Origin: an uncultured Bacteroidota bacterium
GTDB lineage: Bacteria; Bacteroidota; Bacteroidia; Bacteroidales; P3
Direction of reading: 5' to 3'
Length of the DNA stretch: 64,000 nucleotides
Assembly: GCA_902762805.1 (NCBI GenBank)
Contig: CACWPQ010000022.1
Span: 30,661 to 94,660 of the forward strand
The notes under the pieces were generated by a model. It ran no database searches, was not told the origin of the DNA, and saw only the letters and a program-made list of their open reading frames with translations. How positions within the stretch are numbered: position 1 is the stretch's first letter; every line of letters begins with the position of its first letter. Made by a program: the position numbers and the translations under genes. Positions 5,471 to 25,884 of this stretch are shown piece after piece.

Positions 5471-5845
5471 ATGAGCAAAGATTTCATACAAGACCCCGTC
5501 TTCCCGGAGTGTCCCATCCGCAACGTGCTGGTGCGCTTCAGCAGCAAATGGGCGCTGGCGGTAATCTACACCCTCAGCGGCAGGGACACTCCTATGCGTT
5601 TCCGCGACCTGGCGGAGAAGAACCCCGACTGCTCGCAGAAAGTGCTCACGAGCACCCTGCGCGGCTTGGAGGCCGACGGCCTCGTCAGCCGCAAGGTCTA
5701 TCCCGAGGTGCCGCCGCGCGTGGAGTATGCGCTCACCGACCGCGGCCGCAGCTTCATGCCCGTCATGCAGCAACTCATGGACTGGGCCTACAACAACCTC
5801 CACGACATCGTAACCGACCGCGAAAGATACTATGGACAGAATTGA
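5471..5845 (+). CDS. HxlR-family winged-helix transcriptional regulator
   Basis: 124 residues. PECPIRNVLVRFSSKWAL is the typical HxlR opening, with the N-terminal Cys at position 14 that serves as a redox or electrophile sensor in several characterised members (HypR, QorR). The winged helix follows (MRFRDLAEKNPDCSQKVLTSTLRGLEADGLVSRKVY, then PPRVEYALTDRG). It probably binds the promoter at 5438 and controls its own operon. The gene overlaps the macrodomain gene by 14 bases, so it is translationally linked to the ADP-ribosylation pair. A redox-responsive role fits what is known of SirTM operons but is inferred. Confidence 0.9.
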   Translation: MSKDFIQDPVFPECPIRNVLVRFSSKWALAVIYTLSGRDTPMRFRDLAEKNPDCSQKVLTSTLRGLEADGLVSRKVYPEVPPRVEYALTDRGRSFMPVMQQLMDWAYNNLHDIVTDRERYYGQN

Positions 5846-6623
5846 AAACATCGACTACTGCATCCGCTACCTGCTGGAGCAGGACCATGCCCAGGCGGAG
5901 ATACCGCGCAAACTGCAGCGCAAGCAGGAGTTGCTGCGCGTCTTGATGAACATCTGGCGTCCGCAGCCGTTGGACATCGCGTTCCTCCAGGCTCAGGATG
6001 CGGAGCTGCAGGCACAACGGGAGGACAAAGGGGTCGTGTCGCTGAAGCACATCGCCGAACCCGGCCATTCGCCCCTTGCCGCCCCTGCCATCCCCCTCCT
6101 CTGGCAGGGCGATATCACACGGCTGAAGGTCGACGCCATCGTCAATGCCGCCAACAGTCGCGGTCTCGGTTGCTGGCATCCGATGCATGCCTGCATCGAC
6201 AACGCCATCCATTCGGCTGCGGGACTGCAGTTGCGCCAGGAGTGCAACCGCATCCTGCAGGGCGAGACCATCGCCACGGGCGGCGCCATCATCACCCCGG
6301 GCTACAACCTGCCCGCCAAGTATGTGATACACACCGTGGGCCCCATCATCGGCGCCGACCAGCCGACTACCGGCGAGGAGGGGCTGCTGGCAGGGTGCTA
6401 CCGCAGCAGCCTCTACCTGGCCAAAGAGCACGGTTGCCGCAGCATAGCCTTCTGCTGCATCGCCACGGGCGAGTTCCACTTCCCCAACCGCCGTGCCGCC
6501 GAGGTGGCCGTGCGCACCGTCCGCGAGTTCCACGAATCGTCGCGCTACCCCATCAAGGTGGTCTTCAACGTCTTCAAGGACATCGACTATGATATCTACC
6601 GGGAACTTCTCGCAGCGCGTTGA
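5832..6623 (+). CDS. Zinc-dependent macrodomain protein-ADP-ribose hydrolase (SirTM-linked type)
   Basis: 263 residues: a helical N-terminal part (1-85), then a macrodomain. GDITRLKVDAIVNAANS (93-109) is the ADP-ribose pocket. The following LGCWHPMHAC segment has Cys114, His119 and Cys121 at the places of the zinc ligands of the Staphylococcus/Streptococcus SirTM-linked macrodomains. HTVGPI and AFCCIATGEFHFPN complete the subfamily signature. Known role of this subfamily: it removes mono-ADP-ribose from the target modified by the partner sirtuin. It overlaps the sirtuin gene by 35 bases, so the pair is firmly coupled. The real protein substrate in this organism is unknown. Confidence 0.92.
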   Translation: MDRIENIDYCIRYLLEQDHAQAEIPRKLQRKQELLRVLMNIWRPQPLDIAFLQAQDAELQAQREDKGVVSLKHIAEPGHSPLAAPAIPLLWQGDITRLKVDAIVNAANSRGLGCWHPMHACIDNAIHSAAGLQLRQECNRILQGETIATGGAIITPGYNLPAKYVIHTVGPIIGADQPTTGEEGLLAGCYRSSLYLAKEHGCRSIAFCCIATGEFHFPNRRAAEVAVRTVREFHESSRYPIKVVFNVFKDIDYDIYRELLAAR

Positions 6624-8466: not shown

Positions 8467-9603
8467 TCACACAATGTATTGTTTTATCCACAAACCAAAG
8501 AATCGGTCGCTGATGCGATACTTCCGGTCTGCTTCCACCACAAGGTCTTCCTCGCGAAGCTTCTTAATAGCAGCCTGCACAGAACTAGCGGTGGTCAAAC
8601 GATGTCGTTTGATGAAGGCTGCCGAGGTAATCTGCGAAGCCCAGCCGTCAGTGGCAATAGCGTAGAGAAGCGACTTTTGACGGATGGTGGTTTTGGAAAG
8701 AATCTCACGGTAAAAGCCATCATTGCCTTCCAGAATGGTATGCAGGGAGTATCGGATTGTTTCTTTGTCGCAGACTTCACCAGCCTCCGTGTTGGAAAAA
8801 GCCTCATTCATCAGCTTCTGCACATAATAGGTATGCCCCTCAAACAGGTCGTAGGCCTCCGCTGCAATGGAGTGAGGCATCGTCTTCCCGCGTTCACGGA
8901 ATTTCTCTTCAATAAAAGCAACATACTTGTCACGTGTAATAGCATCAAGTGAGATATTGTCCGCGCTTTTGTAGAACGGACGGCTGGCGCTGTCGAACAT
9001 CATGCCCAATAGGTGTCGTTCGCTGCCGGCAAAAATAAAGCGACAGTTGTCAATTTTCTGAAGGTATCCCCGTAGCAAGGCCTCCACATTCTTTTCTGGA
9101 TATTTGGCAATCTGCTGGAACTCATCTATTGCCACAATGCATGGCCGGTCGGCCTGTTGTAGATATTGGAAAATCTCCTCCAGCGTGAATTCCGGTCGGT
9201 CGATGTCGCCAAGTGCGATGTTGAACGAGGGAAGACCAGTGGCCGCATCAAATCCAAATTTTCCATTTATGCTCTTGAGTGCTTGGACGAGTTTTTGTGT
9301 CAGCTTCTTGCCATAGGGGACGGTCTGTTCGTACACCGCGCGCCCGAGGTCATAGACCAGCTCCTGAAGACACGTGGTGTGCAAAATGTCGATGAAGAAA
9401 GTGTAGTAATTGTCGGCAATCACCGTTTGATCAAAACAATATTGTATCAATCCCGTCTTGCCCATACGGCGTTCTGATCGGACAACCACATTGTTTCCGT
9501 TGCGCAGAAGCTTTATCAGTCGAGCCGACTCCTGCTCACGATCGCAGAAATACTCAGGTTTTATTCGCCCTGAAACCACAAAGGGATTCTCGTCTTCTTT
9601 CAT
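8467..9603 (-). CDS. AAA-type ATPase of the archaeal-ATPase (STAND-like) group
   Basis: 378 residues. The P-loop is the RRMGKT form (VVRSERRMGKTGLI, about 40-54), Walker B is CIVAIDEFQQI (about 165-175), and FIFAGSERH follows as sensor region. The C-terminal part (about 290-378) is a winged helix (SAAFIKRHRLTTASSVQAAIKKL). This family is common in mobile and host-interaction loci of Bacteroidota and archaea. Cellular roles are largely unknown; DNA-bound NTP-dependent switching is a reasonable inference. It has its own promoter at 9626-9633 and is followed directly by the exonuclease gene, a pairing compatible with DNA processing or defence. Confidence 0.85.
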   Translation of the reverse strand: MKEDENPFVVSGRIKPEYFCDREQESARLIKLLRNGNNVVVRSERRMGKTGLIQYCFDQTVIADNYYTFFIDILHTTCLQELVYDLGRAVYEQTVPYGKKLTQKLVQALKSINGKFGFDAATGLPSFNIALGDIDRPEFTLEEIFQYLQQADRPCIVAIDEFQQIAKYPEKNVEALLRGYLQKIDNCRFIFAGSERHLLGMMFDSASRPFYKSADNISLDAITRDKYVAFIEEKFRERGKTMPHSIAAEAYDLFEGHTYYVQKLMNEAFSNTEAGEVCDKETIRYSLHTILEGNDGFYREILSKTTIRQKSLLYAIATDGWASQITSAAFIKRHRLTTASSVQAAIKKLREEDLVVEADRKYRISDRFFGLWIKQYIV

Positions 9604-9625
9604 AATTCTCTATGTTTTTCGGCTG

Positions 9626-9633
9626 CAAAGATA
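9626..9633 (-). promoter_or_regulatory. -7 promoter element for AAA ATPase-exonuclease unit
   Basis: Minus-strand TATCTTTG followed by CAG, 22 bases before the ATPase start codon. Confidence 0.7.
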
Positions 9634-9648
9634 CAAACTTTTTCTCAT

Positions 9649-9695
9649 ATTATGCAAATTGAATTATGTAATTTGCATAATTTAATTTGCATAAT
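9649..9695. repeat. Three 12-bp repeats upstream of the AAA ATPase promoter
   Basis: ATTATGCAAATT (9649-9660) is the reverse complement of AATTTGCATAAT at 9670-9681, and the latter is repeated exactly at 9684-9695. The three sites lie just upstream of the -7 element, about 16 to 60 bases away, where a repressor or activator would bind. The neighbouring WYL regulator is one candidate; this is inference. Confidence 0.6.
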
Positions 9696-9746
9696 TATTA
9701 TATACACATGTTATCCAATGATTTAAATCATTCGTCCAGTCGGCAT

Positions 9747-10637
9747 TTAGAGATATTTATTCATCATCTCCTGTATCTCGCCACGCATGTCGGCACGGAG
9801 ACTTTCGGGTTGGAGCACTTCGACGGTGCTGCCGAGGGAGAGGAGTTTCTGTTTGAAGTCGTAGGTGGGACGCACACGCAGAGAGAAAATGGAATACTCC
9901 CCGGTGCGCTTCAGTTCGTGCTGGCTGCTGTGCAAGGGCAACGAGCGCAGGTAGTTGGCCTGGTAGGCGTCCACCTTCAGACGTATGGACTCCGTGGGTG
10001 TATCGTCCACAATGATGCCGTAGGCACCTTCGAACATCTCCTTCAGGTCGAACTTCGGGTCGCGCTTGTAGGTTTCCGCCTGCTGCTCCACCTTCGACAT
10101 GCGGTCGAGGGCGAAAATGCGATAGTCGCCGTCGCGGCGGGCAATGAGGTACCACCGCCGTTCGAACATCTTGAGGGCATAGGGCTGCACGCCACTGTAA
10201 CTGTAGGGCGACTCGCTCCAATAGGGTGCATACGTGAATTTCAGCGTGCGTTTCTCCTTCAACGCTTCCAATAGTGCCGGAAGCATTCGGCTGTCCGTGG
10301 CTTCCACCATGATATACTGTGCCGCTTCGCGACTGTCGGCCACGACATGATGCACCGCTATGGAATCCATCATCCACTGGCGGAAGTACTCCCTGCCTCC
10401 GTCGTCGGCCAGACGGTAGCGATACTGCCCCCCGTCCATGTAACACTCAACCTCGATGCCGAAGAGGTCGAGAATCTCGCTGCGGTGGCGGTGGAAACTG
10501 CGCCGTGCGAAGGCGCCCTCTTCATGCAGTTCGTCCGTGGCGTTCCAGCGGTCTGCAATCTGTTCCAGCGTCAGGCCCTTGTCGCCCACCCGCATCAGCG
10601 TCCCCACCAGCCAGGTGTATTTCTTCAGTACGTTCAT
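9747..10637 (-). CDS. WYL-domain transcriptional regulator
   Basis: 296 residues. An N-terminal winged helix (KGLTLEQIADRWN...RRSFHRHRSEILDLFGI) is followed by the WYL domain: KRTLKFTYAPYWSES, VQPYALKMFERRWYLIARRDGDYRIFALDRM, and a C-terminal WCX-like extension (ESIRLKVDAYQANYLRSLPLHSSQ). WYL proteins sense nucleic acid or nucleotide ligands and often control CRISPR and other defence loci. The gene start overlaps the stop of the RhuM-Fic gene (ATGA), so it is the last gene of a four-gene leftward operon starting at the 12346 promoter. Confidence 0.9.
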   Translation of the reverse strand: MNVLKKYTWLVGTLMRVGDKGLTLEQIADRWNATDELHEEGAFARRSFHRHRSEILDLFGIEVECYMDGGQYRYRLADDGGREYFRQWMMDSIAVHHVVADSREAAQYIMVEATDSRMLPALLEALKEKRTLKFTYAPYWSESPYSYSGVQPYALKMFERRWYLIARRDGDYRIFALDRMSKVEQQAETYKRDPKFDLKEMFEGAYGIIVDDTPTESIRLKVDAYQANYLRSLPLHSSQHELKRTGEYSIFSLRVRPTYDFKQKLLSLGSTVEVLQPESLRADMRGEIQEMMNKYL

Positions 10638-11584
10638 AGGTTGTTCTTGTTGATAAGGTTCACCACCACCTTCACCATCACATCCTTCTCCTCAGGGCGG
10701 CTCTCGGCAATCATAAGCGTGAGGGCCACGAGGGTGTTGTCGGCGAGGCGCTTGCTGCCGTCCTCGCGGTAGAGGATGCGGTTGTTGTTCAGGAACCACA
10801 GGAACAGCGTGGCGGCGATGCGTTTGTTGCCGTCGCTGAAGGAGTGGTTCTTGGTGACAAGGTAAAGCAGCATGGCGGCCTTCTCTTCGGTGCTGGGGTA
10901 GAGCTCCACGCCGTCGAAGGTTTGGTAGATCTGTCCTATGGAGCTCTTGAACGACTCATCCTTCTCGTTGCCGAAGAGTGCGCTCTCGCCGAAGCGTTCC
11001 TTCAATGAGCAGATAGCCTGCATGGCATTGTCGTAGGTGGCATGGAAAGGGGCTTCGCTGGTGGTGTCGCTGACGGTGAGCCGCTGGTAGTCGTAACTGT
11101 CGAGGGTGTCGAGGGCGTAGGTGTAGTCAGTCACCACGTCGAAGAGTGCATTGGTCTCGTCGGTCGAAAGCAGCGGCTGGTTTTGTATGGTCCGTCCGAG
11201 CATGCCCACCAGCTGCCGCAGCTCGCCAATCTGCTCCTTGTGGACATTTCTTGCCCAGATACGGAATGCAGTACCTCGCTGACTCTTCACGCGATAGCCA
11301 ACAGAGATAATGACATCAAGGTCATAAAACTTTTGCATACGCTTTATTTCTCTTACACCTTCCCTTCGAACTTGTAAGAATTCCTTACAAGTTGCACGTT
11401 CGTCCAATTCACCCTCGCTATAAGCATTTCGTATATGCATAGTTATATTCTGCGGCGTTTTCTCAAAGAGCAACGCCATCTGTGCCTGTGTCAGCCACAC
11501 GGTTTCGTTCTCCAACCGCACATCGATTGCGGTCTGCCCGTCGTCGGTCTGATAGATGATTATCTTGTCGTTTATGTTCTCCAT
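10634..11584 (-). CDS. RhuM-type N-terminal domain fused to a Fic/Doc domain
   Basis: 316 residues. The first half is the RhuM (virulence-associated) region: IYQTDDGQTAIDVRLENETVWLTQAQMALLF, then YDLDVIISVGYRVKSQRGTAFRIWA. The second half is a Fic/Doc domain with core HSFSDGNKR (His247), close to Doc-type HxFxDGNKR, and a C-terminal helix. Fic domains transfer AMP (or phosphate in Doc) onto protein hydroxyls; the RhuM part probably supplies DNA or target recognition. In family context these proteins behave like toxin or host-interaction factors. Codons 114-147 coincide with a 99-bp stretch repeated perfectly in the broken RhuM gene near 17 kb. Confidence 0.9.
   Translation of the reverse strand: MENINDKIIIYQTDDGQTAIDVRLENETVWLTQAQMALLFEKTPQNITMHIRNAYSEGELDERATCKEFLQVRREGVREIKRMQKFYDLDVIISVGYRVKSQRGTAFRIWARNVHKEQIGELRQLVGMLGRTIQNQPLLSTDETNALFDVVTDYTYALDTLDSYDYQRLTVSDTTSEAPFHATYDNAMQAICSLKERFGESALFGNEKDESFKSSIGQIYQTFDGVELYPSTEEKAAMLLYLVTKNHSFSDGNKRIAATLFLWFLNNNRILYREDGSKRLADNTLVALTLMIAESRPEEKDVMVKVVVNLINKNNL
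11145..11243. repeat. 99-bp perfect direct repeat, copy 1 (inside RhuM-Fic gene)
   Basis: Base-for-base identical to 16943-17041. Here it is in frame and encodes HKEQIGELRQLVGMLGRTIQ and the following residues to NAL. Flanking sequence differs on both sides. Confidence 0.95.
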
Positions 11585-13628: not shown

Positions 13629-14426
13629 TCACAAAATGATTTTTCTTACCCAGTTCATTATTTCTTGAGTGGCATCAATAACGAACTCTTGCCCTATGGC
13701 AGCAGAAAGGAAATAATCATCCTTCCAGGAATTGGGATTGTTGCTGATGTCTACATCCCTAAAGAAAGCAGGCAAGTCCCAACAGCGCCTCGTCATTCCT
13801 TCTTTGGTCAATATTCTATCCTTTCGATAGGTAAGTACATCGCATCCTTTAATGTTATCCATAAAAGACAACCATTCAGTCGGCAAGAATATTGCATTTT
13901 TTTTATCATTCCTTACTTTTTGGTCACCAATATGGGGATGATCTTTCAACCACTCCGGGGCTTTGTCCATTTGCTCGACAATCTCCCCAATTTGCATATA
14001 GGCATAAATCACATGTAAGTCTCTTGCTCCCTTCTTGTATGCTAACTTTCCATTAATTACTTCCGTTTCTTTAAACCAGCCATAAAACAGAAACAAATCT
14101 CCTTCAGTGACTCCATGATTTCGCAAATGAGTTAATGCACTACTGGCTTGTCCAAAGGCTGGCATCCAACCCGGAAGTCTGTCCTTTAATTCTTTTCTTA
14201 AATCGGGATCTAAGTGGCAATAATCTTTTGGCTGTAGTTTTGTTTTGGGTTTCAATGAACTGATAATGTCATAATAACTCACGCCATCCCATAATAAAGA
14301 ATCAAATGTATTGTTACCATCTTTGTCTGGAATTGGCAAAGACAAAAGTGTCCCATCTGGCATAATTGGGTTAGGCTGCTTTCCATTCGAAGAATCAAAG
14401 CCTTTTCTGCTTAATATAATTTTCAT
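13629..14426 (-). CDS. Nmad3 family protein (nucleotide modification associated domain 3)
   Basis: 265 residues. The opening MKIILSRKGFDSSNGKQPNP, then IMPDGTLLSLPIPD, is the recognisable Nmad3 signature, and the segment YCHLDPDLRKEL plus DLFLFYGWFKETE and LHVIYAYMQIGEIV agrees with the family along the full length. The domain was defined computationally by association with enzymes that make or read modified DNA bases; its biochemical activity is not established. It overlaps the Nmad2 gene by ATGA, as often seen for this pair. No base-modifying enzyme (TET/JBP, ADDT or aGPT type) is encoded nearby, so the partner may be among the unknown genes of the operon. Confidence 0.82.
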   Translation of the reverse strand: MKIILSRKGFDSSNGKQPNPIMPDGTLLSLPIPDKDGNNTFDSLLWDGVSYYDIISSLKPKTKLQPKDYCHLDPDLRKELKDRLPGWMPAFGQASSALTHLRNHGVTEGDLFLFYGWFKETEVINGKLAYKKGARDLHVIYAYMQIGEIVEQMDKAPEWLKDHPHIGDQKVRNDKKNAIFLPTEWLSFMDNIKGCDVLTYRKDRILTKEGMTRRCWDLPAFFRDVDISNNPNSWKDDYFLSAAIGQEFVIDATQEIMNWVRKIIL

Positions 14427-15016
14427 GATAAAGGGTAAACTATTCCGGGTTTGTAGTTGTTAATGACTTGATCAATAATCTTCTTTGCACTATTGTTTTC
14501 TAATGAGAGTTTATTTAATCGATGCACGACAAATCCTTTCTCCACATTGATAGAGATTGCATTCTCCACACCAAAGTAGTAGAACTCATTGCAAATCAAA
14601 ACATACTTTCCACTTAAGTCACGTTTTATATTAGTGGAATTGTGTCCTCCGCCATTATTGTGCTGGTGGAAATCATCACCGCCAAAGGGTTCGTAAATGT
14701 TATCACCAAAATCGTTAACCCAATCATTGGGCGAGGGTCGCTTCTCTGGATATTTTTCCCAATAATCCTTAATGAGCATTTTATCACTTACTTTAGCCAG
14801 ATAGATTAGTTTTTGACCATAATCACTAAAAGTGTACTTCTGTTTTTTCCCTTGAACCTTATTAGAAGTCCATCCAGAAATCCAATAACCTATTTCTGCA
14901 CACCTTCGAATTGTGGGTTTGCATGTAGCCAAAGTCAATACACCCTGATATGGATTTGGGGCAAATCCAGTATCATGAGTCATCTTATAACAATAAAGAA
15001 ATCTTTCTCCTTTCAT
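14423..15016 (-). CDS. Nmad2 family protein (nucleotide modification associated domain 2)
   Basis: 197 residues. MTHDTGFAPNPYQGVLTLAT followed by CKPTIRRCAEIGYWISGW is the Nmad2 signature; KYTFSDYGQKLIYLAKV and a His/Asn/Gly-rich DDFHQHNNGGGHNS segment (possible metal site) follow, then FYYFGVENAI. As with Nmad3, family knowledge says only that it is linked to modified-nucleotide systems. Start ATG at 15016 is 25 bases after the PLD gene stop, with no promoter between, so it belongs to the six-gene operon started at 16821. Confidence 0.82.
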   Translation of the reverse strand: MKGERFLYCYKMTHDTGFAPNPYQGVLTLATCKPTIRRCAEIGYWISGWTSNKVQGKKQKYTFSDYGQKLIYLAKVSDKMLIKDYWEKYPEKRPSPNDWVNDFGDNIYEPFGGDDFHQHNNGGGHNSTNIKRDLSGKYVLICNEFYYFGVENAISINVEKGFVVHRLNKLSLENNSAKKIIDQVINNYKPGIVYPLS

Positions 15017-15041
15017 GTCTTATCTGTTTTGTAAAATGTTT

Positions 15042-15554
15042 TTATCCAATCCTATCCCCACAGAAGTCTTTCCGCTTGCATTTGGCACAGTGGGTTCCTT
15101 GCCAGACGGAGTCGAGGTGGTCGGCGGCGGCATCGACCAATTGGGGGTCGTCGGTGAGGATACCGGCCTCGAAGTTGCGGTTGTTGTCGCCTTTCATACC
15201 GATGCCGGCACCCGTGAGGTTGGCGGAGCCGATATAGGCTACCGCGCAGTCGAAAATCATTATCTTGAAATGCACCCTTGGGCAGAGTCTCCGCTCCAAT
15301 CTACTCCACAATCCTGGATATTTGTCGAAATCCTCGCGGAAGTTCTCACCTGGTTCTTTTGCATGAAGCAGACGCACGTCGACACCACGTCTCAGCAACT
15401 TGTCGAGCACCGACAGAAACGGCACCATGTCCCGTCCACCTTCCACATACAAATCCTTCAAGTCGGCTGTGCTAATCCATAGGTCGTGCTTGACCTTCTC
15501 GCAACGCGAGAGGACTTCTGTGTAATGGTCCTTGTCGGCGATGTATTGTATCAT
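15042..15554 (-). CDS. Phospholipase D-like nuclease (single HKD motif)
   Basis: 170 residues with one HKD site: HFKIMIFDCAVAYIGSANLTGAG (written here in parts: His95, Lys97, Asp102, then GSANLTG). One motif per chain means it must dimerise, as in the Nuc endonuclease. The C terminus has CAKCKRKDFC, a small zinc knuckle or DNA-contact loop. PLD-fold proteins of this size are usually metal-independent DNases of restriction or defence systems. It stands between a possible glycosylase-like gene and the Nmad pair, in the same operon, which suggests it acts on DNA in that pathway. Confidence 0.85.
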   Translation of the reverse strand: MIQYIADKDHYTEVLSRCEKVKHDLWISTADLKDLYVEGGRDMVPFLSVLDKLLRRGVDVRLLHAKEPGENFREDFDKYPGLWSRLERRLCPRVHFKIMIFDCAVAYIGSANLTGAGIGMKGDNNRNFEAGILTDDPQLVDAAADHLDSVWQGTHCAKCKRKDFCGDRIG

Positions 15555-15581
15555 TATTATAAATAAAAAAGTAAGGCGAAG

Positions 15582-16190
15582 CTACAATTGACTTGAAATC
15601 ACCTTATACCACCAATCCCACTGGTAACCTGTAGATGGATGATACACAGCTATGCAGCGAACTTGATTCTTATTATTCAATTGATAAAAACCATTATTTA
15701 TATCCCATCCATCTACATTCAATGGCTTATCCCATGTCCATCTGTCCTCGGGCAAATTATTAAATAACTTACCCACGCCCCACACTATAATCAAATCAGG
15801 CTGTAAATCATTTAAAACCTCAAAAAATGCTTCCTCTGCATTTTTATAGTCTATTGGAGAACCAGATTCTCTGGCACCAGACATTGGAACTTGAAGATAA
15901 TTATAGAACGATATAGAATTCCATATTTCCTGACTTTTTTCAGGTTTTGTTTCTTCACCCACAAGCGAACGTTCAAACTTCAAATAGGTATTTGTCCAAC
16001 CACCATTATTTTCGCGGCATTCACCTTTCCTTATTGCAAGATAGTCTTCTACAATTCTTTTCGTCAATGTAGCTACAGCTTTTTCCTCTGAACAGTAAAA
16101 GCTTTCACCGATAGCTAGAATTTTTTTTCGGAAAATCCCACCGGATTCATAATTCGTTCCCTTCCAAGGCTTAAAAAATACATGTTCCAT
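15582..16190 (-). CDS. Possible uracil-DNA glycosylase-like fold protein
   Basis: 202 residues. Weak but ordered similarity to the UDG-like superfamily: KKILAIGESFYC near residue 23 (GExx position), SISFYNYLQVPM around 92-103 (the NxV/N-rich strand), LQPDLIIVWGVGKL (core strand), and AVYHPSTGYQWDWW near the C terminus (the HPS motif). No catalytic Asp/Asn can be assigned with confidence. If correct it would be a base-excising or base-recognising enzyme, which would fit a modification operon. Alternative: an unrelated alpha/beta protein. It is 12 bases downstream of the 76-residue gene. Confidence 0.6.
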   Translation of the reverse strand: MEHVFFKPWKGTNYESGGIFRKKILAIGESFYCSEEKAVATLTKRIVEDYLAIRKGECRENNGGWTNTYLKFERSLVGEETKPEKSQEIWNSISFYNYLQVPMSGARESGSPIDYKNAEEAFFEVLNDLQPDLIIVWGVGKLFNNLPEDRWTWDKPLNVDGWDINNGFYQLNNKNQVRCIAVYHPSTGYQWDWWYKVISSQL

Positions 16191-16468: not shown

Positions 16469-16798
16469 TTATAATTCATAATCGGGATTATTCAATCCAT
16501 CAGTAAACATTGATCTTCTCTCTGCTTCCGGGTCCGGAAAATCAAAATGGTCTTTTACGTGTTGAATCATACGCATTGTTTTTTTGTATGTTTCCAACAA
16601 TTCTTTTTGACTTTTAGTTGGTTGAATAGTACATTCAATATCTTGCTCTATCCAATCTATATCAGGTTGAATATTGACATCTATGTCGTATAGAATTCTA
16701 TTTACCGCCCATATTGCCTCATCTTGCGTGGCATCGCTGTCAATCAAATCATTCAGTTTCTCCTGAATCTGCAATAATTGTTCTTTTGTGTTTTTCAT
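16469..16798 (-). CDS. Small helical protein of unknown function, first gene of the Nmad operon
   Basis: 109 residues, strongly acidic and predicted largely helical (KNTKEQLLQIQEKLNDLIDS; KSQKELLETYKKTMRMIQHV). No recognised domain. The start at 16798 is 22 bases behind a clear -7 element, fixing it as the first gene of the six-gene unit. Confidence 0.7.
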   Translation of the reverse strand: MKNTKEQLLQIQEKLNDLIDSDATQDEAIWAVNRILYDIDVNIQPDIDWIEQDIECTIQPTKSQKELLETYKKTMRMIQHVKDHFDFPDPEAERRSMFTDGLNNPDYEL

Positions 16799-16853: not shown

Positions 16854-17337
16854 TTATCCTTCAAGCGGCACGTGATCGACGTTTGTGTTTATTTGGTAGT
16901 TGAAGGCGTAGGTGGTCATGCGGAGGAGGTCGGGGATGGAGTAGTGCATTGGTCTCGTCGGTCGAAAGCAGCGGCTGGTTTTGTATGGTCCGTCCGAGCA
17001 TGCCCACCAGCTGCCGCAGCTCGCCAATCTGCTCCTTGTGGGGATGCGCTCGTTCACAGCATAGCCTTTAATCAAATACTCCTTCAGCACCTTATTGGCC
17101 CATTGGCGGAACTTAATACCTCGTTTTGAATTGACTCGATAACCGACGGAGATAATCATGTCCAAATTGAAATAAGGAATGGTACGCGTAACCATTCTGC
17201 TACCTTCAGTTTGAACTTGTGCAATTTTTGCACAGGTTCCCACTCGCTCCAATTCAAATGTTATTAATATGGCGAACTATTAATGTACGGTCTGTTTGGA
17301 ACAATTGCACAAGCAGCTTTTGTTCATAGGTTGTACA
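16854..17337 (-). pseudogene. Broken RhuM-family gene
   Basis: Recognisable RhuM sequence in at least three frames: YEQKLLVQLFQTDRTLIVRH then INNI from about 17335; after a frameshift, ELERVGTCAKIAQVQTEGSR and VTRTIPYFNLDMIISVGYRV to GYAVNERI; after another shift HKEQIGELRQLVGMLGRTIQ and so on, within the 99-bp repeat. Then the sequence leaves the family. The first 20-30 codons are missing and the remaining 5' end abuts the diverged repeat copy B. The Fic half seen at 10634 is absent. This is a dead relative of the intact RhuM-Fic gene. Confidence 0.85.
16943..17041. repeat. 99-bp perfect direct repeat, copy 2 (inside broken RhuM gene)
   Basis: Identical to 11145-11243. Here it is out of frame with the upstream part of the pseudogene. 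Surrounding RhuM sequence of the two loci is clearly diverged, so the identity reflects recent recombination or gene conversion rather than ancestry. Confidence 0.95.
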
Positions 17338-17501
17338 AATCATATTGACTTTCACCTAACAAAACATCTATAGGTTTTACTCCCCTTTTACTCAAATCCT
17401 AATCATATTTTACGTGCCTCCATGGTTCCTATAGGGTAACTCTTAGGCTCCTTCGTAGTACAGGTCACTCCTAAAACGTTGGCATTTTATCTATTGTTGC
17501 A
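17338..17501 (+). repeat. Diverged long repeat, copy B (right side of Nmad section)
   Basis: Partner of 12419-12582. It begins exactly where the RhuM reading frame is cut off, which suggests that a rearrangement involving this repeat removed the gene's 5' end. Confidence 0.65.
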
Positions 17502-17514
17502 TTTTTTGCAACAA
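17494..17514. terminator. Hairpin with 8-bp stem
   Basis: TTGTTGCA (17494-17501) pairs with TGCAACAA (17507-17514) over a T-rich loop. It lies in the otherwise gene-free stretch upstream of the dual-nuclease gene. No U-tract directly follows. Confidence 0.35.
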
Positions 17515-17613
17515 CAGCATGACAAACAACAGTTCAAATAGAAAATGCAACACAAGAAATAAAAAAAGAAGCGCCAAAAACAAAAAGTTCTTGGCCCATT
17601 CGGTAAAAAGTAG

Positions 17614-17621
17614 TACTTTTG
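17614..17621 (+). promoter_or_regulatory. -7 promoter element for the dual-nuclease membrane protein
   Basis: TACTTTTG followed by CAC, 41 bases before the ATG at 17663. Confidence 0.65.
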
Positions 17622-17662
17622 CACTTTAAAACGGAAATAGTATTTTCAAATGGAAAACAACC

Positions 17663-20653
17663 ATGGATGAATTAAAAGGATGTTTTTTATGGGTTTTAGC
17701 AATTGTAGGGTGGTTTATTCTATGGGGTGCCTGTATGTATATTGGCGACTCATCTGGAATTAGCCCATTCCTTATCTTATTAATATTTGTAGGAATAGCA
17801 GCATTTGTGGGCGGAGGTGGTTTTTTCATCTATTTACGAATAGCCGACGCAAAAAAAAAGAAGAAGTTGGCAAAGGCAGATGAAATCAAAAGAAAACACC
17901 CTCTTGCCTTTAATCAATTTGTGACGAAATTAAAACAAAGTCATAGTTATTCTTCAACATTATCCGATATAGAAATAGCAGAAAAAGCCATAAAGCACCC
18001 GTATGAGAAATGGGGCGAGGAAGAAAAGAAATTGATACAGGAAGCGAAGAGAAGAAAGGAGGAAGCTGAAAAAAGCGCGGAAATTGCCCGTAAATATCCT
18101 CATGGAATAGAAAAATGGAAGAAAGAAAAGGGGTTGTATGGAAACGCAACAATAATTGCAAATATTAGTGATATACAGAAGTATGAAGAATATTACAATA
18201 AGACAGCAGAATACAATGCCTGGGAAAAAGACCAAGCCGAATTTACGAAAATGTGCCGACAAATAGGACCAGAAATGATGCCTACGTTTGGCTATTATAA
18301 CTATAATATTCCTTTTGAAAAAACAGATGATACCGGAAAAAATGTGGCCGGGAAATACCTTGTTTGGCAATTTTTTGCTGGTACATATTGCTTTGAACAG
18401 GATTTAGATTATTCTGATTTTGATTATATTAAGCGGAGCACAAAAAACGTCATACAATTCAGAGAAAGAAACAAACACTACTTGCCATCTGTTTATGAGG
18501 CGATTAAGAACTTTATAAATAAAATTGCAAAAGAACACGATGTAACACTGTATTTATGTGCAAGCAATAAAGAATGGGACGCCAAAAGCCTCAACTATCA
18601 TTATTGTCTTGTAGACGGATCTCAGTTCCATAATCTTCCCGCATCAATAGAAATATGTGATCCTGCGACAGAGTCTCTATTGTTTGACGATATTCTGGAT
18701 TATAGTGATAGTATAAAATTTTCAAATAGGCATATTATTGTTGTCGAAATGCAAACTGACAACAATCACCTTAAAGAAGTCTGCAGTAATATCCTCGCGG
18801 AAAACAAGGAGAAACACCCGCTCATTACATATATCAGTCTCCTAAAAGGATTAGATAGAAATGAAATGCTGTCCCTAATTGAAAAAAAGAATAAAGAAAA
18901 AGCAGAGGAGGAACGGAAGAAAGAAGAAGAACGACAATCGCAACAAAAAAAGCAAAGCATTGAAAAACAGATTGAAGACCTACCTGTATTATTAGAATCA
19001 AATAACATTGAACATATAGAAGCATGTATTCAATATATACAAGACAATATCAACTTCGTTTCCGAGAAAGAGAAGATTGCTTTTGAACGAAACAAAGTTG
19101 ATTATAACGCAAGAAAGGAGCTAGGTATACCACAAAAAGAAATGCTTCTTTTTGTGAATTATGATATTCCACTAATAAAATCTGAGGAAGGCTATTACGC
19201 AATTACCCGAATGCCAAAGAAAGGGTGTATTGTATGGCCATACAGGAGAAGAACTATAGCACGTAGGGGTTACACAGAACAGGATTTCGAGCTAATTCTA
19301 AAAAAACATTTGTCACCTAGAGCCATTGTTCTTGGAGACGTGAATATTCTGCCTCAGGATGGCGTAAGACCTTACGAGCCGGATATTGCTGTTGTATATT
19401 CAGAAAATGGGTATAATGTTAGAATAGATATTGAAATAGATGAACCATATGCCGCACTTACCAACAAACCAACCCACTATATAGGATGTGGTGATGACTA
19501 TCGAGATGCCAATCTTAATGCATTGGGATGGATTGTCATTAGGTTTTCCGAGCATCAAGTTTCTAAGCATCCTTTGGAATGTGCCAAATATGTTTCTGAA
19601 ATAATAAAGAACATCGATAGTAACTTTGAGTTTGAAGGATTTCAAAACATCCCGTCTCTTGAGCCTGAAAAACAATGGACAAAAATAGAGTCCCAAAAAA
19701 TGGCTCAGGAAATGCTTAGGCAAAAATATCTAAATCATAGATTTGGCAAAACCGATGAGGCTATTTACACAAATAAAGACTTAAAACTCACTCCATTTGA
19801 AACTTCAATCATAGACAAGGTCGACCATACTATCATAGGCAAACCTATACATAGTACGACTATTATTGAAGAGGATTGTGATAGCAACAATAACATACTT
19901 TACAACAAAACGAATGCCTTTGAACAAGATAAACATATTGAATTTAACCCAGATAAGCACATATATACAATAGATGGTATCCAATACAGATCTGTCAGTT
20001 CTGTAATATCTGATTTGTTTCCAGAATTTGATTCCGACTATTGGTCTTCCGTCAAAGGGCGGCAACGAGGGGTTGCTTCACAAAAGGTTGCTGAAGAATG
20101 GGATTCAAAAGGCCGACAATCCCGTGAGGTGGGAACTTTTTTGCATCAACAAATAGAGAATTATTTTTTGAAAAAGCCAATAGAGTACGAATATCATTAC
20201 GTTTATCAAGGAGCATATATAGAGGATGATTGCACCGTAGATATCTATTCAGAATTCTGTTCTTTCAAAGAGTTTTTAAATGAAGTAGCAATCAATCCAT
20301 TTCGCTCTGAATGGAGAATTTTTGACAAGTCATTAAAACTTGCCGGAACCATTGATTTGATATCAAAAAACGAAGAAGGCACATACGATATTTACGATTG
20401 GAAAAGAAGTTCTCGCTTATTTCAGAGCAACCCATATCAATCTGGATTTGGAAGACTGTGTTCCCTCGAAGACACCCCAAGAAACCACTATTACTTGCAA
20501 CAAAATTTATACAAATACATCTTAGAGCATCAATATGGTTTGAAAATACATTCTATGTCTTTAGTTGGTTTGCATCCATCTTATGGATCATTTAAATTAA
20601 TTGACGTGCCCGAAATGGCTAAAGAAATATCCTGGATAATACAAATGATGTAA
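17663..20653 (+). CDS. Membrane-anchored protein with two PD-(D/E)xK nuclease-like domains
   Basis: 996 residues, low GC, monocistronic. Order: two membrane segments (about 8-27 and 33-57), Lys/Glu-rich coiled coil (60-150), a large region without recognised family (150-400), a second coiled coil (410-450). Nuclease-like domain 1 (about 560-650) reads RPYEPDIAVVY, IDIEIDEPYAAL, and GWIVIRFSEHQV, like the VSR/DUF559 branch. Nuclease-like domain 2 (about 755-985) has the RecB/Cas4-type set: GTFLHQQIENYF, LAGTIDLISK (Asp) and YDIYDWKRSS (Asp, Lys), then a Gln-Tyr helix QQNLYKYILE. Membrane tethering plus nucleases suggests inducible DNA destruction or defence at the membrane; that function is inferred. 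Not matched to any named system. Confidence 0.8.
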   Translation: MDELKGCFLWVLAIVGWFILWGACMYIGDSSGISPFLILLIFVGIAAFVGGGGFFIYLRIADAKKKKKLAKADEIKRKHPLAFNQFVTKLKQSHSYSSTLSDIEIAEKAIKHPYEKWGEEEKKLIQEAKRRKEEAEKSAEIARKYPHGIEKWKKEKGLYGNATIIANISDIQKYEEYYNKTAEYNAWEKDQAEFTKMCRQIGPEMMPTFGYYNYNIPFEKTDDTGKNVAGKYLVWQFFAGTYCFEQDLDYSDFDYIKRSTKNVIQFRERNKHYLPSVYEAIKNFINKIAKEHDVTLYLCASNKEWDAKSLNYHYCLVDGSQFHNLPASIEICDPATESLLFDDILDYSDSIKFSNRHIIVVEMQTDNNHLKEVCSNILAENKEKHPLITYISLLKGLDRNEMLSLIEKKNKEKAEEERKKEEERQSQQKKQSIEKQIEDLPVLLESNNIEHIEACIQYIQDNINFVSEKEKIAFERNKVDYNARKELGIPQKEMLLFVNYDIPLIKSEEGYYAITRMPKKGCIVWPYRRRTIARRGYTEQDFELILKKHLSPRAIVLGDVNILPQDGVRPYEPDIAVVYSENGYNVRIDIEIDEPYAALTNKPTHYIGCGDDYRDANLNALGWIVIRFSEHQVSKHPLECAKYVSEIIKNIDSNFEFEGFQNIPSLEPEKQWTKIESQKMAQEMLRQKYLNHRFGKTDEAIYTNKDLKLTPFETSIIDKVDHTIIGKPIHSTTIIEEDCDSNNNILYNKTNAFEQDKHIEFNPDKHIYTIDGIQYRSVSSVISDLFPEFDSDYWSSVKGRQRGVASQKVAEEWDSKGRQSREVGTFLHQQIENYFLKKPIEYEYHYVYQGAYIEDDCTVDIYSEFCSFKEFLNEVAINPFRSEWRIFDKSLKLAGTIDLISKNEEGTYDIYDWKRSSRLFQSNPYQSGFGRLCSLEDTPRNHYYLQQNLYKYILEHQYGLKIHSMSLVGLHPSYGSFKLIDVPEMAKEISWIIQMM

Positions 20654-20921
20654 CTATATGTTCTGCCCGATGTTCTTTTGAGGATTATTCATGAGACAGA
20701 TCCTGAACGCACCATTTTTCCATTTACCAGTAACCGACAGGCCATGCAATCAAATCATGGCCATTCTATCGTTTAACTATCTTGATTATATGTTCCAGTA
20801 GATGTCGTAGTAAAAACAACAAAGTCATCTATGTCATCATACGGGTCAGCCATAAGATTCATCTAATGATCTTATTTTTCTTTTGATCCAACGCAAATAC
20901 GAACAACATGATCTCCTGCTA

Positions 20922-20941
20922 GTGCGTCACGTCATGACACA
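20922..20941 (+). repeat. 20-bp direct repeat with TCATGA core, copy 1
   Basis: GTGCGTCACGTCATGACACA; copy 2 at 21216-21235 differs at one base. Each contains the palindrome GTCATGAC or TCATGA and could be a protein binding site or an integration scar. Confidence 0.6.
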
Positions 20942-21215
20942 CCGCTAAAATTCTTTATAATTTGTGAGAATGACTAAACGAACTTTTTTGATATAATCGC
21001 CAAATTTAATATGAATTTGGGGATTTGGTGATGCCGTAGACGTCAGTTCACCTGCTCAATGATGGTGGAAACGGTCTTTTCTGTCCTTGCATATTACAAC
21101 GTTTTAGTTAAGCCAAATGCAGAGAGCAAATCACGTAGTGTTTGCACTATGCTGAGGCGAGAAAACGACTGTTTCAAAGAAACAAACTTTTTTCGGCTGC
21201 AAAATCAGCAAAACT

Positions 21216-21235
21216 GTGCGTCACATCATGACACA
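21216..21235 (+). repeat. 20-bp direct repeat with TCATGA core, copy 2
   Basis: GTGCGTCACATCATGACACA, same orientation, 294 bases from copy 1 and about 58 bases upstream of the rubrerythrin -7 element, so an operator role is possible. Confidence 0.6.
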
Positions 21236-21292
21236 TGAGGGGACACCCCAAATATTTTGGCAAAAAAGTTCTGTTGAAATCAATTTTTTTAT

Positions 21293-21300
21293 TAACTTTG
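21293..21300 (+). promoter_or_regulatory. -7 promoter element for rubrerythrin
   Basis: TAACTTTG followed by CAC. The leader to the ATG at 21390 is about 80 bases, longer than most in this window. Confidence 0.65.
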
Positions 21301-21389
21301 CACCTGTTATTATCGCGCTAAAACCCCGAAGGGATGCAGCATAACAGCAATGATTTCAATGAATTATCAACCTTAAAACATATAGAGAC

Positions 21390-22097
21390 ATGAAGAAGTA
21401 CCAATGCACCGTATGCAAGTATGAGTATGACCCGGCCAAGGGTGACCCGACGCAGGGCATAGCCCCCGGCACGCCTTTCGAGGCACTGCCCGCCGACTGG
21501 AAGTGCCCCCGCTGCAAGCAGGCCAAGGAGAAGTTCGCCTCCATCGAGGAGGCTCCCAAGGCCAACCCCTATGCCGGCACGCAGACCGAGAAGAACCTGA
21601 TGGAGGCCTTCGCCGGCGAGAGCCAGGCCCGCAACAAGTACACCTACTTCGCCTCGAAGGCCAAGAAGGAGGGCTACGAGCAGATTGCCGCCCTCTTCCT
21701 GCAGACCGCCGAGAACGAGAAGGAGCATGCCAAGCTGTGGTTCAAGGAGCTGAACGGCATCGGCACCACCGCCGAGAACCTGCTGGCCGCCGCCGAGGGT
21801 GAGAACCACGAGTGGACAGACATGTACGAGGGCTTCGCCCGCACCGCCGAGGCCGAGGGCTTCCCGGAGCTGGCCGCCCGTTTCCGCGGCGTGGCCGCCA
21901 TCGAGAAATACCACGAGGAGCGCTACCGCGCCCTGCTCCACAACGTGGAGGCCAAGGAGGTCTTCGCCAAGAGCGAGGTGAAGGTGTGGGAGTGCCGCAA
22001 CTGCGGCCACATCGTGGTGGGCACTCAGGCCCCGGAGGTTTGCCCCGTGTGCAACCATCCGCAGTCCTACTTCGAAATCAACAAGCAGAACTACTAA
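21390..22097 (+). CDS. rbr: Rubrerythrin with rubredoxin domains at both ends
   Basis: 235 residues in three parts. Residues 1-50 are a classical rubredoxin ([13 protein letters not shown] ... CPRCK). Residues 60-195 are the ferritin-like diiron domain ([38 protein letters not shown]). The C terminus is a second rubredoxin-like knuckle ([24 protein letters not shown]). Known role: NADH-linked peroxidase that removes hydrogen peroxide in anaerobes. Classical rubrerythrin has only the C-terminal knuckle and reverse rubrerythrin only the N-terminal one; this has both and may be self-sufficient in electron entry. Own promoter and terminator. Confidence 0.95.
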
Positions 22098-22098
22098 G

Positions 22099-22131
22099 GA
22101 AACGGGGGCCGAGGCCCCCGTTTCTGTTTCT
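22099..22131 (+). terminator. Strong hairpin terminator after rubrerythrin
   Basis: GAAACGGGGGCC (22099-22110) is the reverse complement of GGCCCCCGTTTC (22113-22124), followed by TGTTTCTT. It also lies at the 3' end of the opposing gene at 22131. Confidence 0.85.
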
Positions 22132-23808: not shown

Positions 23809-25884
23809 TCAACCCACGCTGCATCCGGGGGCGACGAGGTCGCTCGGTGTGAGCAGCACCAGGCGGCCGTCCTTGTCCTCGGCGCTGAGGATCATGCCTT
23901 GGCTTTCGACGCCTTTGAGCTTGCGCGGCGGGAAGTTGGCGATGAAGCACACTTGGCGGCCGACGAGTTTCTCGGGCTCGGGGTAGAACTTGGCGATGCC
24001 GCTGACGATGGTGCGGGGGGTGCCGGTGCCGTCGTCGAGGCTGAATTGCAACAGTTTGTCAGCTTTGGGCACCTTGGTGCATTCGAGGATGGTGGCCACG
24101 CGGATGTCCATGCGGCCGAAGTCATCGATGGTGACGTTCTCCTTGACGGCGGCGGGCTGCCAGGCGTCGAGGGCGTTCTGCTCCTTGGTGGCCTGCAGTT
24201 TGTCGATTTGGGCCTGGATAGTCTCATCGCTGATTTGCTCGAAGAGCAGTTCGGGGGTGCCGATGGTGTGGCCTTCGGGCAGCAGGTCGGCGCGGCCGGC
24301 GTCCTGCCAACCTTTGGCGGGCAGGTTGAGCATGCGGTGGAGTTTGTCGGCTGTGAAGGGCAGGAAGGGGGCGCAGAGGATGGCCAGGTTGGCGCAGATC
24401 TGCAGCGAGAGGTTCATCACCGCGGCGGTGCGCCCGGGGTCGGTCTTGGCGAGTTTCCAGGGCTCGGTGTCGGTGAGGTATTTGTTGCCCAGGCGGGCCA
24501 GGTTCATCATCTCGCTGAGGGCTTCGCGCAGGCGGTAGGTCTCGATGGAGCGGCCGATGCGCTCGGGGAAGGTGGCCAGTTCGCGGACGAGCTCGTTGTC
24601 GAGGTCGGAGGCCGAAGGTTGGAGGTCGGAGGTGGCGGGCACGCGGCCTTCGTAGAACTTGTGCGTCAGCACGAGGGTGCGGTTGACGAAGTTGCCCAGG
24701 ATGGCCACCAGCTCGGAATTGTTCTTCAGCTGGAAGTCCTTCCAGGTGAAGTCGTTGTCCTTGGTCTCGGGGGCGTTGGAGCAGAGGGTGTAGCGGAGCA
24801 CGTCCTGCTTGCCGGGGAACTCGTCGAGGTATTCGTGCAGCCATACGGCCCAGTTTCTCGAGGTGGAGATTTTGTCGCCCTCGAGGTTGAGGAATTCGTT
24901 GGCCGGCACGTTGGCGGGCAGGATGTAGGAGCCGTCGGCGTGGAGCATCGAGGGGAAGATGATGCAGTGGAAGACGATGTTGTCTTTGCCGATGAAGTGC
25001 ACCAGCTTGGTGTCGTCGGCTTTCCACCAGCGCTCCCAGTCGTCGCCTTTGAGTTGCTTGGTGAAGGAGATGTAGCCGATTGGGGCGTCGAACCATACGT
25101 AGAGCACTTTGCCGTCGGTGCCTTCGAGGGGCACATGCACGCCCCAGTCGAGGTCGCGCGTGACGGCGCGCGGCTGCAGGCCGGCGTCGATCCATGATTT
25201 GCATTGGCCGTAGACGTTCACTTTCCAGTCGCCTTTGTGGCTGTCGAGTATCCACTCGCGCAGCCACCCCTCGTCCTGGTCCAGCGGGAGGAACCAGTGT
25301 TTGGTCTCTTTCAGCACGGGTTTGCTTCCGCTGAGCGCGCTTTTGGGGTTGATGAGGTCGGTGGCGTTGAGGCTGGTGCCGCAGGCTTCGCACTGGTCGC
25401 CGTAGGCGTGCTCGTTGCCGCAGCGCGGGCAGGTGCCGGTGATGTAGCGGTCGGCCAGGAACTGCTGCGCCTCCTCGTCGTAGTACTGCATCGAGGTCTT
25501 CTCGACGAATTTGCCTGCATCGTACAGCTTCTTGAAGTATTCGGCTGCCGTGCGGTGGTGCTCCTCGCAGCTGGTGCGGCTGTAGATGTCGAACGAGATG
25601 CCGAGGCGCTGGAAGCTGTCTTTGATGACGGCGTGGTAGCGGTCGACGATGTCCTGCGGCGTGACGCCCTCTTTGCGGGCCTTGATGGTGATGGGCACGC
25701 CGTGCTCGTCCGAGCCGCCTATGAACACCACCTCCTCGCCCTGCGCGCGCAGGTAGCGGGCGTAGACATCGGCCGGGACGTACACACCGGCCAGGTGGCC
25801 GATGTGCACGGGTCCGTTGGCGTAGGGCAGTGCCGAGGTGATGGTGTAGCGCTTATACTGTCGGTCTTTTTCGGTATATACCAT
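23809..25884 (-). CDS. metG: Methionyl-tRNA synthetase
   Basis: 691 residues. Class I signature [15 protein letters not shown] at the N terminus, zinc-binding [18 protein letters not shown], and the KMSKS loop as [10 protein letters not shown]. After the anticodon-binding helical domain comes a C-terminal tRNA-binding (EMAP/Trbp111-like) domain starting about residue 590 ([20 protein letters not shown]), which also gives dimerisation. Reaction: ATP-dependent charging of tRNA-Met. Nine bases separate it from the upstream lipoprotein gene, so it is probably the third gene of a unit led by the DUF5606 gene. Length is normal for the E. coli-like dimeric form. Confidence 0.97.

Follow-up and report, generated by a model that had tools for sequence, protein, structure and literature searches.

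P0001, a predicted membrane-anchored double-nuclease protein from a Bacteroidales genome, as a candidate anti-phage effector with exchangeable parts

Introduction

What would a single bacterial protein do with a predicted membrane anchor at one end and two different nuclease domains at the other? The question is raised by a gene of an uncultured Bacteroidota bacterium (assembly GCA_902762805.1), found within a stretch of 64,000 nucleotides of contig CACWPQ010000022.1 (positions 30,661 to 94,660; hereafter 'the window'). The original prediction, made from the letters of the DNA, described the product (P0001) as a membrane-tethered defence or DNA-processing protein encoded beside an Nmad operon. 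Having examined P0001, its relatives and their genomic surroundings computationally, we tentatively propose, with confidence falling just short of an even balance, that it is an anti-phage effector encoded by a single gene, which would first cut phage DNA entering at the inner membrane and then digest it. Both the defence role and the entry step are what we infer from the evidence set out below.

Domain organization of P0001

The open reading frame (ORF) encoding P0001 is intact, with an ATG start and 996 codons followed by a stop, and it is present in a single copy in the host genome (2.49 Mb in 41 contigs). Two hydrophobic segments are followed in order by a coil stretch, a middle domain, a charged linker and two nuclease domains. 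The gene and its nuclease parts are located as follows:

17663..20653, + strand: gene for P0001, membrane-anchored double-nuclease protein, 996 amino acids (ORF call)
19262..19621, + strand: nuclease domain 1, DUF559/MTES_1575-like, residues 534-653
19382..19444, + strand: site 1, D574 ... D589-x-E591-x-D593-E594 (53-row alignment)
19916..20650, + strand: nuclease domain 2, RecB/MGME1-type exonuclease fold, residues 752-996
20144..20512, + strand: site 2, H828, E883, D898, D912-W-K914, Q946-Q947, Y950 (53-row alignment)

AlphaFold models give residues 534-653 a DUF559-like endonuclease fold and residues 752-996 a RecB/MGME1 exonuclease fold. Both predicted domains match solved nuclease folds; the model of domain 1 superimposes on the endonuclease-like structure 3hrl with a root-mean-square deviation of 1.9 over 93 residues. 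Across 53 aligned proteins, site 1 shows no change at D589, E591 and D593 and at least 90% conservation at D574, and every listed residue of site 2 is invariant. The full-length protein matched Pfam weakly, with scores under the cut-off (MTES_1575, E = 0.0043; DUF559, E = 0.009). Under the curated cut-offs domain 1 scored 17.5 versus 38.2 bits and 16.3 versus 20.6 bits, and we therefore describe it as DUF559-like rather than as a DUF559 member. The C-terminal piece of P0001, when scanned alone, clears the PDDEXK_1 cut-off (25 versus 22 bits). Searches of PDB sequences with P0001 and with a profile of the nuclease pair gave no match at E ≤ 1.

The same nuclease-pair profile retrieved 1346 proteins at E ≤ 0.001, some of which may hold one domain alone. 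Because of this retrieval, and because both domains match solved nuclease folds, we conclude from alignments and models that the pair is not a chance resemblance. Both domains are conserved and are predicted to be PD-(D/E)xK-type nucleases. These results uphold the claim of the original prediction that two different domains of this type lie behind a membrane anchor; the VSR/DUF559-like and RecB/Cas4-like motifs that it quoted are all present and conserved, and neither outcome that it had named as contradicting it (no nuclease core, or no conserved acidic and lysine residues) was seen in the fold models or in the 53-row alignment.

The front half of the protein contains the following parts:

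17681..17737, + strand: predicted membrane segment 1, residues 7-25 (Kyte-Doolittle 2.18)
17774..17830, + strand: predicted membrane segment 2, residues 38-56, followed by KKKKK (Kyte-Doolittle 2.46)
17831..18277, + strand: helical coil stretch, residues 57-205, with two P-motif repeats, KHPLAFNQF and KYPHGIEKW (AlphaFold (AF2) model; alignment)
18278..18871, + strand: predicted phosphoribosyltransferase-like middle domain, residues 206-403, with an altered phosphoribosyl pyrophosphate (PRPP)-loop region, VVEMQTDNNHL
18872..19090, + strand: charged helical linker, residues 404-476 (AF2 helix 399-439)

The two N-terminal membrane segments anticipated by the original prediction, called here by hydropathy window alone, correspond to hydrophobic residues 7-25 and 38-56. 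Its two coiled coils fit the long helices (3-31, 35-78, 114-144, 168-205 and 399-439) in an AF2 model of residues 1-440. The C-terminal 940 residues are predicted to lie in the cytoplasm because lysines come after the second membrane segment.

The middle domain had no place in the original prediction, nor did the swappable nature of both halves of the protein. Its predicted model resembles the ComF/ShosT phosphoribosyltransferases. The PRPP loop of such enzymes has two acidic residues and TTG; in P0001 this motif is replaced by the VVEMQTDNNHL stretch, in which T365, N367 and L370 are invariant across seven diverse alignment rows. Proof of the relationship by sequence alone was sought and rejected, with a profile comparison giving P = 0.31, worse than the 0.17 of a DarT control. 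A profile of the front half returned seven weak rows from PDB sequences (E from 0.086 to 2.6), and the fold searches excluded no fold beyond those named here.

Relatives of P0001 and their distribution

Ten relatives in a protein-cluster database (P0002-P0011) align over 75-100% of P0001 at 35-71% identity, with the first 247 residues of P0001 not covered by P0010; a further 17 align solely to residues up to 444. A scan of a genome-contig library with P0001 alone gave 94 pattern matches, none of them a relative. At 80% coverage the full-length protein was found in 0 of 72,556 plasmid records and 0 of 50,697 phage records, and partial matches occurred in 40 and 39 of these, respectively. Eight loci were recovered from viral contigs, one of which contains the front half.

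Within the order, the front half was found in 4 of 393 genomes (two of the four weakly). Both nuclease domains in one match were found in 3 of the 393, and at least one part of the pair in 26. Bacteroidota titles accompany 78 of the best 80 genome-contig loci; the exceptions are Chlorobiaceae and Azovibrio assemblies.

Exchange of effectors on the front half

The middle domain is present in 52 proteins of the gathered set, of which 22 also have all or part of the nuclease pair and 30 do not. A DarT domain (from precomputed annotation) is found in 20 of those 30, and a C-terminal phosphoribosyltransferase in four; Pfam scores for the latter were below cut-off in the three that were scanned, and the PADLOC ShosT model matched the two fusions tested (P0023 at 3.3e-9 and P0032 at 1.3e-6). 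One protein (P0026) has a weak methyltransferase match behind the front half, and the remaining five end before or inside an effector. In genome G031 the front half is fused to DarT (PF14487, E = 2.2e-41); the gene after it encodes a macrodomain protein with a match to the PADLOC DarG model at 2.9e-52. Genes named by eye as encoding methylases, one for cytosine and one for adenine, and a DUF262-type protein lie nearby.

Exchange of front parts on the nuclease pair

We analysed 131 proteins with a nuclease-pair match, those derived from the profile being drawn from 120 listed of the 1346. Fewer than 60 residues precede the pair in 57 of them and more in the other 74. A membrane segment is predicted by hydropathy window in 61 of these 74 longer front parts; some metagenomic proteins are truncated at the start, and the counts without a segment may be too high. 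The front parts form 16 groups by BLASTP, 12 of which are single proteins. They include the P0001-type front half together with coil-only forms (in 11 nuclease-pair proteins the match takes in the coil stretch of residues 57-205 but not the middle domain), anchors with coils, and short anchors. In P0086 and 13 relatives a secreted-looking domain and one membrane segment precede the pair, possibly forming a periplasmic sensor with a cytoplasmic nuclease. Other front groups are a metallo-beta-lactamase domain with an anchor (P0157) and a leucine-rich-repeat-like protein (P0152). In genomes the pair also follows Sel1 repeats (G120, Pfam 7e-51) and a UvrD helicase (G064, Pfam 2e-53).

One further front group is that of P0092 (901 amino acids, 14 member sequences), which carries a reverse transcriptase (RT) ahead of the nuclease pair (Pfam 2.2e-22). 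Its best PADLOC models are RT-Protease_XI, RT-TIR_XII and RT-Toprim_I-C (E from 1e-99 to 2e-63), and it contains the VTG stretch typical of retron RTs. To judge from these matches, P0092 is possibly a retron type with a double-nuclease effector. A scan of viral contigs for the RT fusion returned solely the contig with the front half, through its nuclease part.

A tree of 112 dereplicated pairs (of 189 proteins before near-copies were removed, inferred under a quick model without mixture) requires 28 changes of front type, and its starred branches force at least three changes for the type with the middle domain; support is poor for 26 of its 109 inner branches, and the branch of L108 is long. 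Because of the 16 front groups and the 28 changes on the tree, we conclude from these comparisons that front parts and nuclease pair have been swapped repeatedly in evolution.

Several loci associate the pair with helicases. It is fused to a UvrD helicase in L016 (8017-12306, - strand) and adjoins a helicase in L017 (1252-4597, - strand), with AAA_11/AAA_12 and MkoA models. Neighbours in L063, L068, L074, L104 and L106 are helicase-like by resemblance. Such loci, one of them on a phage-like contig, may represent a helicase-nuclease system of defence or repair. In L083-L103 the MGME1-like exonuclease stands alone (∼260 amino acids) as a syntenic gene of Bacteroidaceae, adjoining in 13 of these loci a likely gene for the DNA polymerase III delta subunit (by eye). 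This lone exonuclease is a possible source of domain 2.

Genomic context of the P0001 gene

Comparison with sister genomes places the gene on a separate insert. Two further features of the locus are listed here:

16950..21186, no strand: ∼4.2 kb insert containing the gene and most of a RhuM fragment (comparison with sister genome G099; right edge approximate, 49-bp match)
17614..17621, + strand: TACTTTTG, 41 bases upstream of the ATG (read from sequence)

The sequence TACTTTTG resembles the -7 element (TAnnTTTG) of Bacteroidota promoters. A scan of the P0001 locus for consensus sigma-70 promoters gave a result near the shuffle level (22 versus 16.4, standard deviation 3.8).

A methionyl-tRNA synthetase gene lies in the right flank (23809-25884). 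Of 59 genomes of the genus, 57 match it strongly and the other two, G066 and G075, weakly; the region beside it was compared in 12 of these genomes. None of the 12 contained a match longer than 150 bp to window positions 17157-22130, and most match the right flank only. Where the insert stands in the window, G099 has ∼590 bp (L179, ∼5570-6156); its region retains RhuM-Fic, PLD and other island genes, and that of G120 retains two island pieces. Guanine-plus-cytosine content is ∼35-36% over the gene stretch and exceeds 60% in the right flank from ∼21.5 kb. Because G099 keeps island genes but is without 16950-21186, the alignments indicate that the double-nuclease gene arrived with the RhuM-Fic fragment as a unit of ∼4.2 kb.

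A perfect 99-nucleotide direct repeat lies at 11145-11243 and 16943-17041. It is a piece of the RhuM-Fic gene (10634-11584, - strand) that recurs in a fragment ORF (16854-17252, - strand) at the edge of the insert. A small ORF adjoining the insert (16469-16798) was assigned no function by a Pfam scan.

The Nmad genes (13629-15016) have no match in G099 either. This comparison indicates that they vary independently of the insert. We rejected the P0001 gene as a member of the Nmad operon, and the functional tie drawn by the original prediction is unsupported for the same reason: the gene sits on its own insert, which is missing from G099 where other island genes remain. The cluster at 13629-16190 (- strand) comprises Nmad3, Nmad2, a PLD-domain gene resembling DrmC models and a uracil-DNA-glycosylase-like ORF (by eye), and is likely involved in DNA modification or restriction.

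We also compared the neighbours of related loci, defined as ORFs of 110-900 amino acids within three ORFs of the nuclease gene. An initial set of 148 ORFs at 32 loci with anchored or extended pairs was reduced to 130 ORFs at 30 loci by removal of L059, L104 and some edge or odd ORFs. The control loci (bare pairs and bare exonucleases; initially 238 ORFs at 46 loci) were represented by a hand-picked, non-random 111 ORFs at 23 loci. Partial-match loci (such as L046, L055 and L060) and L106-L112 belong to neither group. Neighbours of the anchored or extended pairs matched 303 PADLOC models at 1e-10, among them, near anchored copies, type I methylases, AbiEii, PD-T4-2 and NsnA, versus 30 models (including an AbiE pair and PDC-S27) near the controls; models overlap on one protein and none occurs in more than 4 of the 130 ORFs, and the figures are to be read as a contrast rather than as a count of systems.

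Individual loci add further associations. The Sel1-nuclease form in G120 adjoins a gene matching a SIR2 model (E = 5.7e-12), and in L018 (5144-7384, + strand) an ORF6N-like gene (by eye) and a SIR2-model gene stand directly ahead of the Sel1-nuclease fusion. In L105, a contig filed as viral, recombinase-, primase- and relaxase-like genes precede a protein with the P0001-type front half and nuclease pair (by eye); two genes after it (9126-11097; 386 and 269 amino acids) have no Pfam or PADLOC match.

Comparison with named systems

P0001 matched no PADLOC family at E ≤ 1, in keeping with the original prediction, which did not recognise it as a named system. The reading of P0001 as a single-gene unit is likewise supported. 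We considered P0001 as a SNIPE, DarTG, ShosTA or retron protein and rejected each assignment on the features compared below.

In DarTG the likeness lies in the front half, which carries DarT in 20 relatives and, beside a DarG-like gene, in G031. P0001 differs in having nucleases in place of DarT (PF14487 was not found in it at E ≤ 1) and no recognised DarG neighbour, and DarTG is not known to include a membrane anchor. ShosTA contains a phosphoribosyltransferase toxin (PDB 8zvb-8zvd), from which the P0001 middle domain differs in its missing PRPP motif; the PADLOC ShosT model did not match P0001 at E ≤ 1, and no DprA-like partner was recognised among the scanned neighbour ORFs of the window gene, which did not include every small ORF. 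Domain 1 has the fold of the DUF559/MTES_1575/3hrl endonuclease-like proteins but scores below their Pfam cut-offs. Domain 2 shares its fold and H...D...DxK...Q..Y residues with MGME1/RecB-family exonucleases (Cas4, AddAB, AdnA, Exo5), but in P0001 it shares a chain with a membrane carrier and a DUF559-like nuclease, and its identity to MGME1 is 12-13%. A Pfam scan found no RT domain in P0001. An RT is seen only in its relative P0092, which has the nuclease pair where RT-effector retrons (PADLOC types I-C, XI and XII) have Toprim, protease or TIR; an RT-Toprim retron fusion has been reported (PMC12405507).

The closest functional analogy is with SNIPE. According to its published description, the SNIPE nuclease cuts phage DNA during injection, and the nuclease is conserved while the N-terminal regions are diverse and mostly transmembrane (PMC13190303). 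SNIPE and P0001 are alike in being single genes with an N-terminal membrane segment, a middle domain and a C-terminal nuclease, and the P0001-type pair likewise combines conserved nucleases with diverse, often transmembrane, N-terminal parts. SNIPE differs in having DUF4041 and a GIY-YIG nuclease where P0001 has a predicted phosphoribosyltransferase-like middle domain and two PD-(D/E)xK-type domains; neither DUF4041 nor GIY-YIG is among the two Pfam matches of P0001 at E ≤ 1. By analogy, our best reading is that P0001 would work like SNIPE but belong to a separate, unnamed kind mostly known from Bacteroidota. Among the papers listed by our literature searches, none concerned the double-nuclease cassette, the phosphoribosyltransferase-like carrier or their two-way exchange.

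Discussion

An anti-phage, membrane-held attack on DNA is the simplest reading of P0001 because it accounts for the tether, the two nucleases and the exchange with DarT and ShosT-like toxins. The two N-terminal segments are predicted to anchor the protein in the inner membrane, where domain 1 would make the first cut in incoming DNA and domain 2 would degrade the resulting ends. The tether would keep the nuclease pair off the host nucleoid, and the middle domain might either hold the pair inactive or sense a ligand or entry protein. The defence role suggested by the original prediction gains indirect backing from effector swapping and gene neighbourhood.

As the main rival to defence at entry we see suicide of the cell, of the kind known from DarTG and ShosTA. 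Here the middle domain would sense infection (through a nucleotide, PRPP or a phage protein) and free the pair against all DNA in the cell, including the host chromosome, so that the infected cell dies. We regard this as unlikely, though to be taken seriously; several observations speak in its favour. The front half also carries DarT (once beside a DarG-like gene) and ShosT-like phosphoribosyltransferases, both with known relatives that serve as toxins in toxin-antitoxin defence, and the nuclease pair occupies the effector position of the retron-type RT protein P0092. DarT itself is reported to act on bacterial as well as phage single-stranded DNA with an abortive outcome (PMC11481870). Yet no antitoxin-like gene was recognised beside P0001, the insert otherwise holding the RhuM fragment only, and a general DNA-killing toxin would not need repeated membrane anchoring.

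P0001 might instead be a membrane-associated enzyme of DNA processing or repair, with a part, for example, in the uptake of DNA, in conjugation or in repair linked to replication. In line with this, the pair has relatives that are fused to a UvrD helicase or lie beside a helicase (in L017 and five further loci), and the exonuclease half alone is syntenic beside apparent housekeeping genes in Bacteroidaceae and is annotated as an exonuclease in phages; MGME1 is a genome-maintenance enzyme. We consider such a role less likely, and indeed improbable, because the front half is rare (and absent at this site from all 12 sister regions) and otherwise bears toxin domains; co-occurrence of both nuclease domains in one match is rare too. 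Competition among plasmids or other mobile elements, in which the anchor would place the nucleases at the site of conjugative DNA entry and phages would not be the main target, seems to us very improbable. It would suit the element in L105, with its integrase-, primase- and relaxase-like genes (by eye), and the presence of the window gene on an insert; however, the neighbours of anchored copies include anti-phage types, and the examined neighbours in the window included no recognised conjugation gene.

Returning to DNA attack at the membrane, we offer a broader proposal more guardedly still: P0001 may exemplify an undescribed, doubly modular immune kit of Bacteroidota. In such a kit, a membrane carrier would use a retired phosphoribosyltransferase as its sensor and hold interchangeable DNA-directed warheads (the double nuclease, DarT, a ShosT-type phosphoribosyltransferase and perhaps a methyltransferase), the double nuclease would also be mounted on other carriers including a retron RT, and invading DNA would be destroyed as it crosses the membrane. 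Membrane-tethered nuclease defence is already known, and the kit as a whole stands a real chance of meriting its own name.

Cutting of phage DNA at entry by membrane-bound nucleases has been demonstrated only recently, for SNIPE (PMC13190303). P0001 points to a second, unrelated solution, mostly known from Bacteroidota, in which each chain bears two nucleases. It also suggests that the membrane carrier may be a general holder for DNA-attacking toxins, including DarT and ShosT-like enzymes. If so, such toxins would be kept from the host chromosome by place and not only by an antitoxin, a catalytically changed phosphoribosyltransferase fold could act as a sensor, and one would expect a retron type whose effector is a double nuclease.

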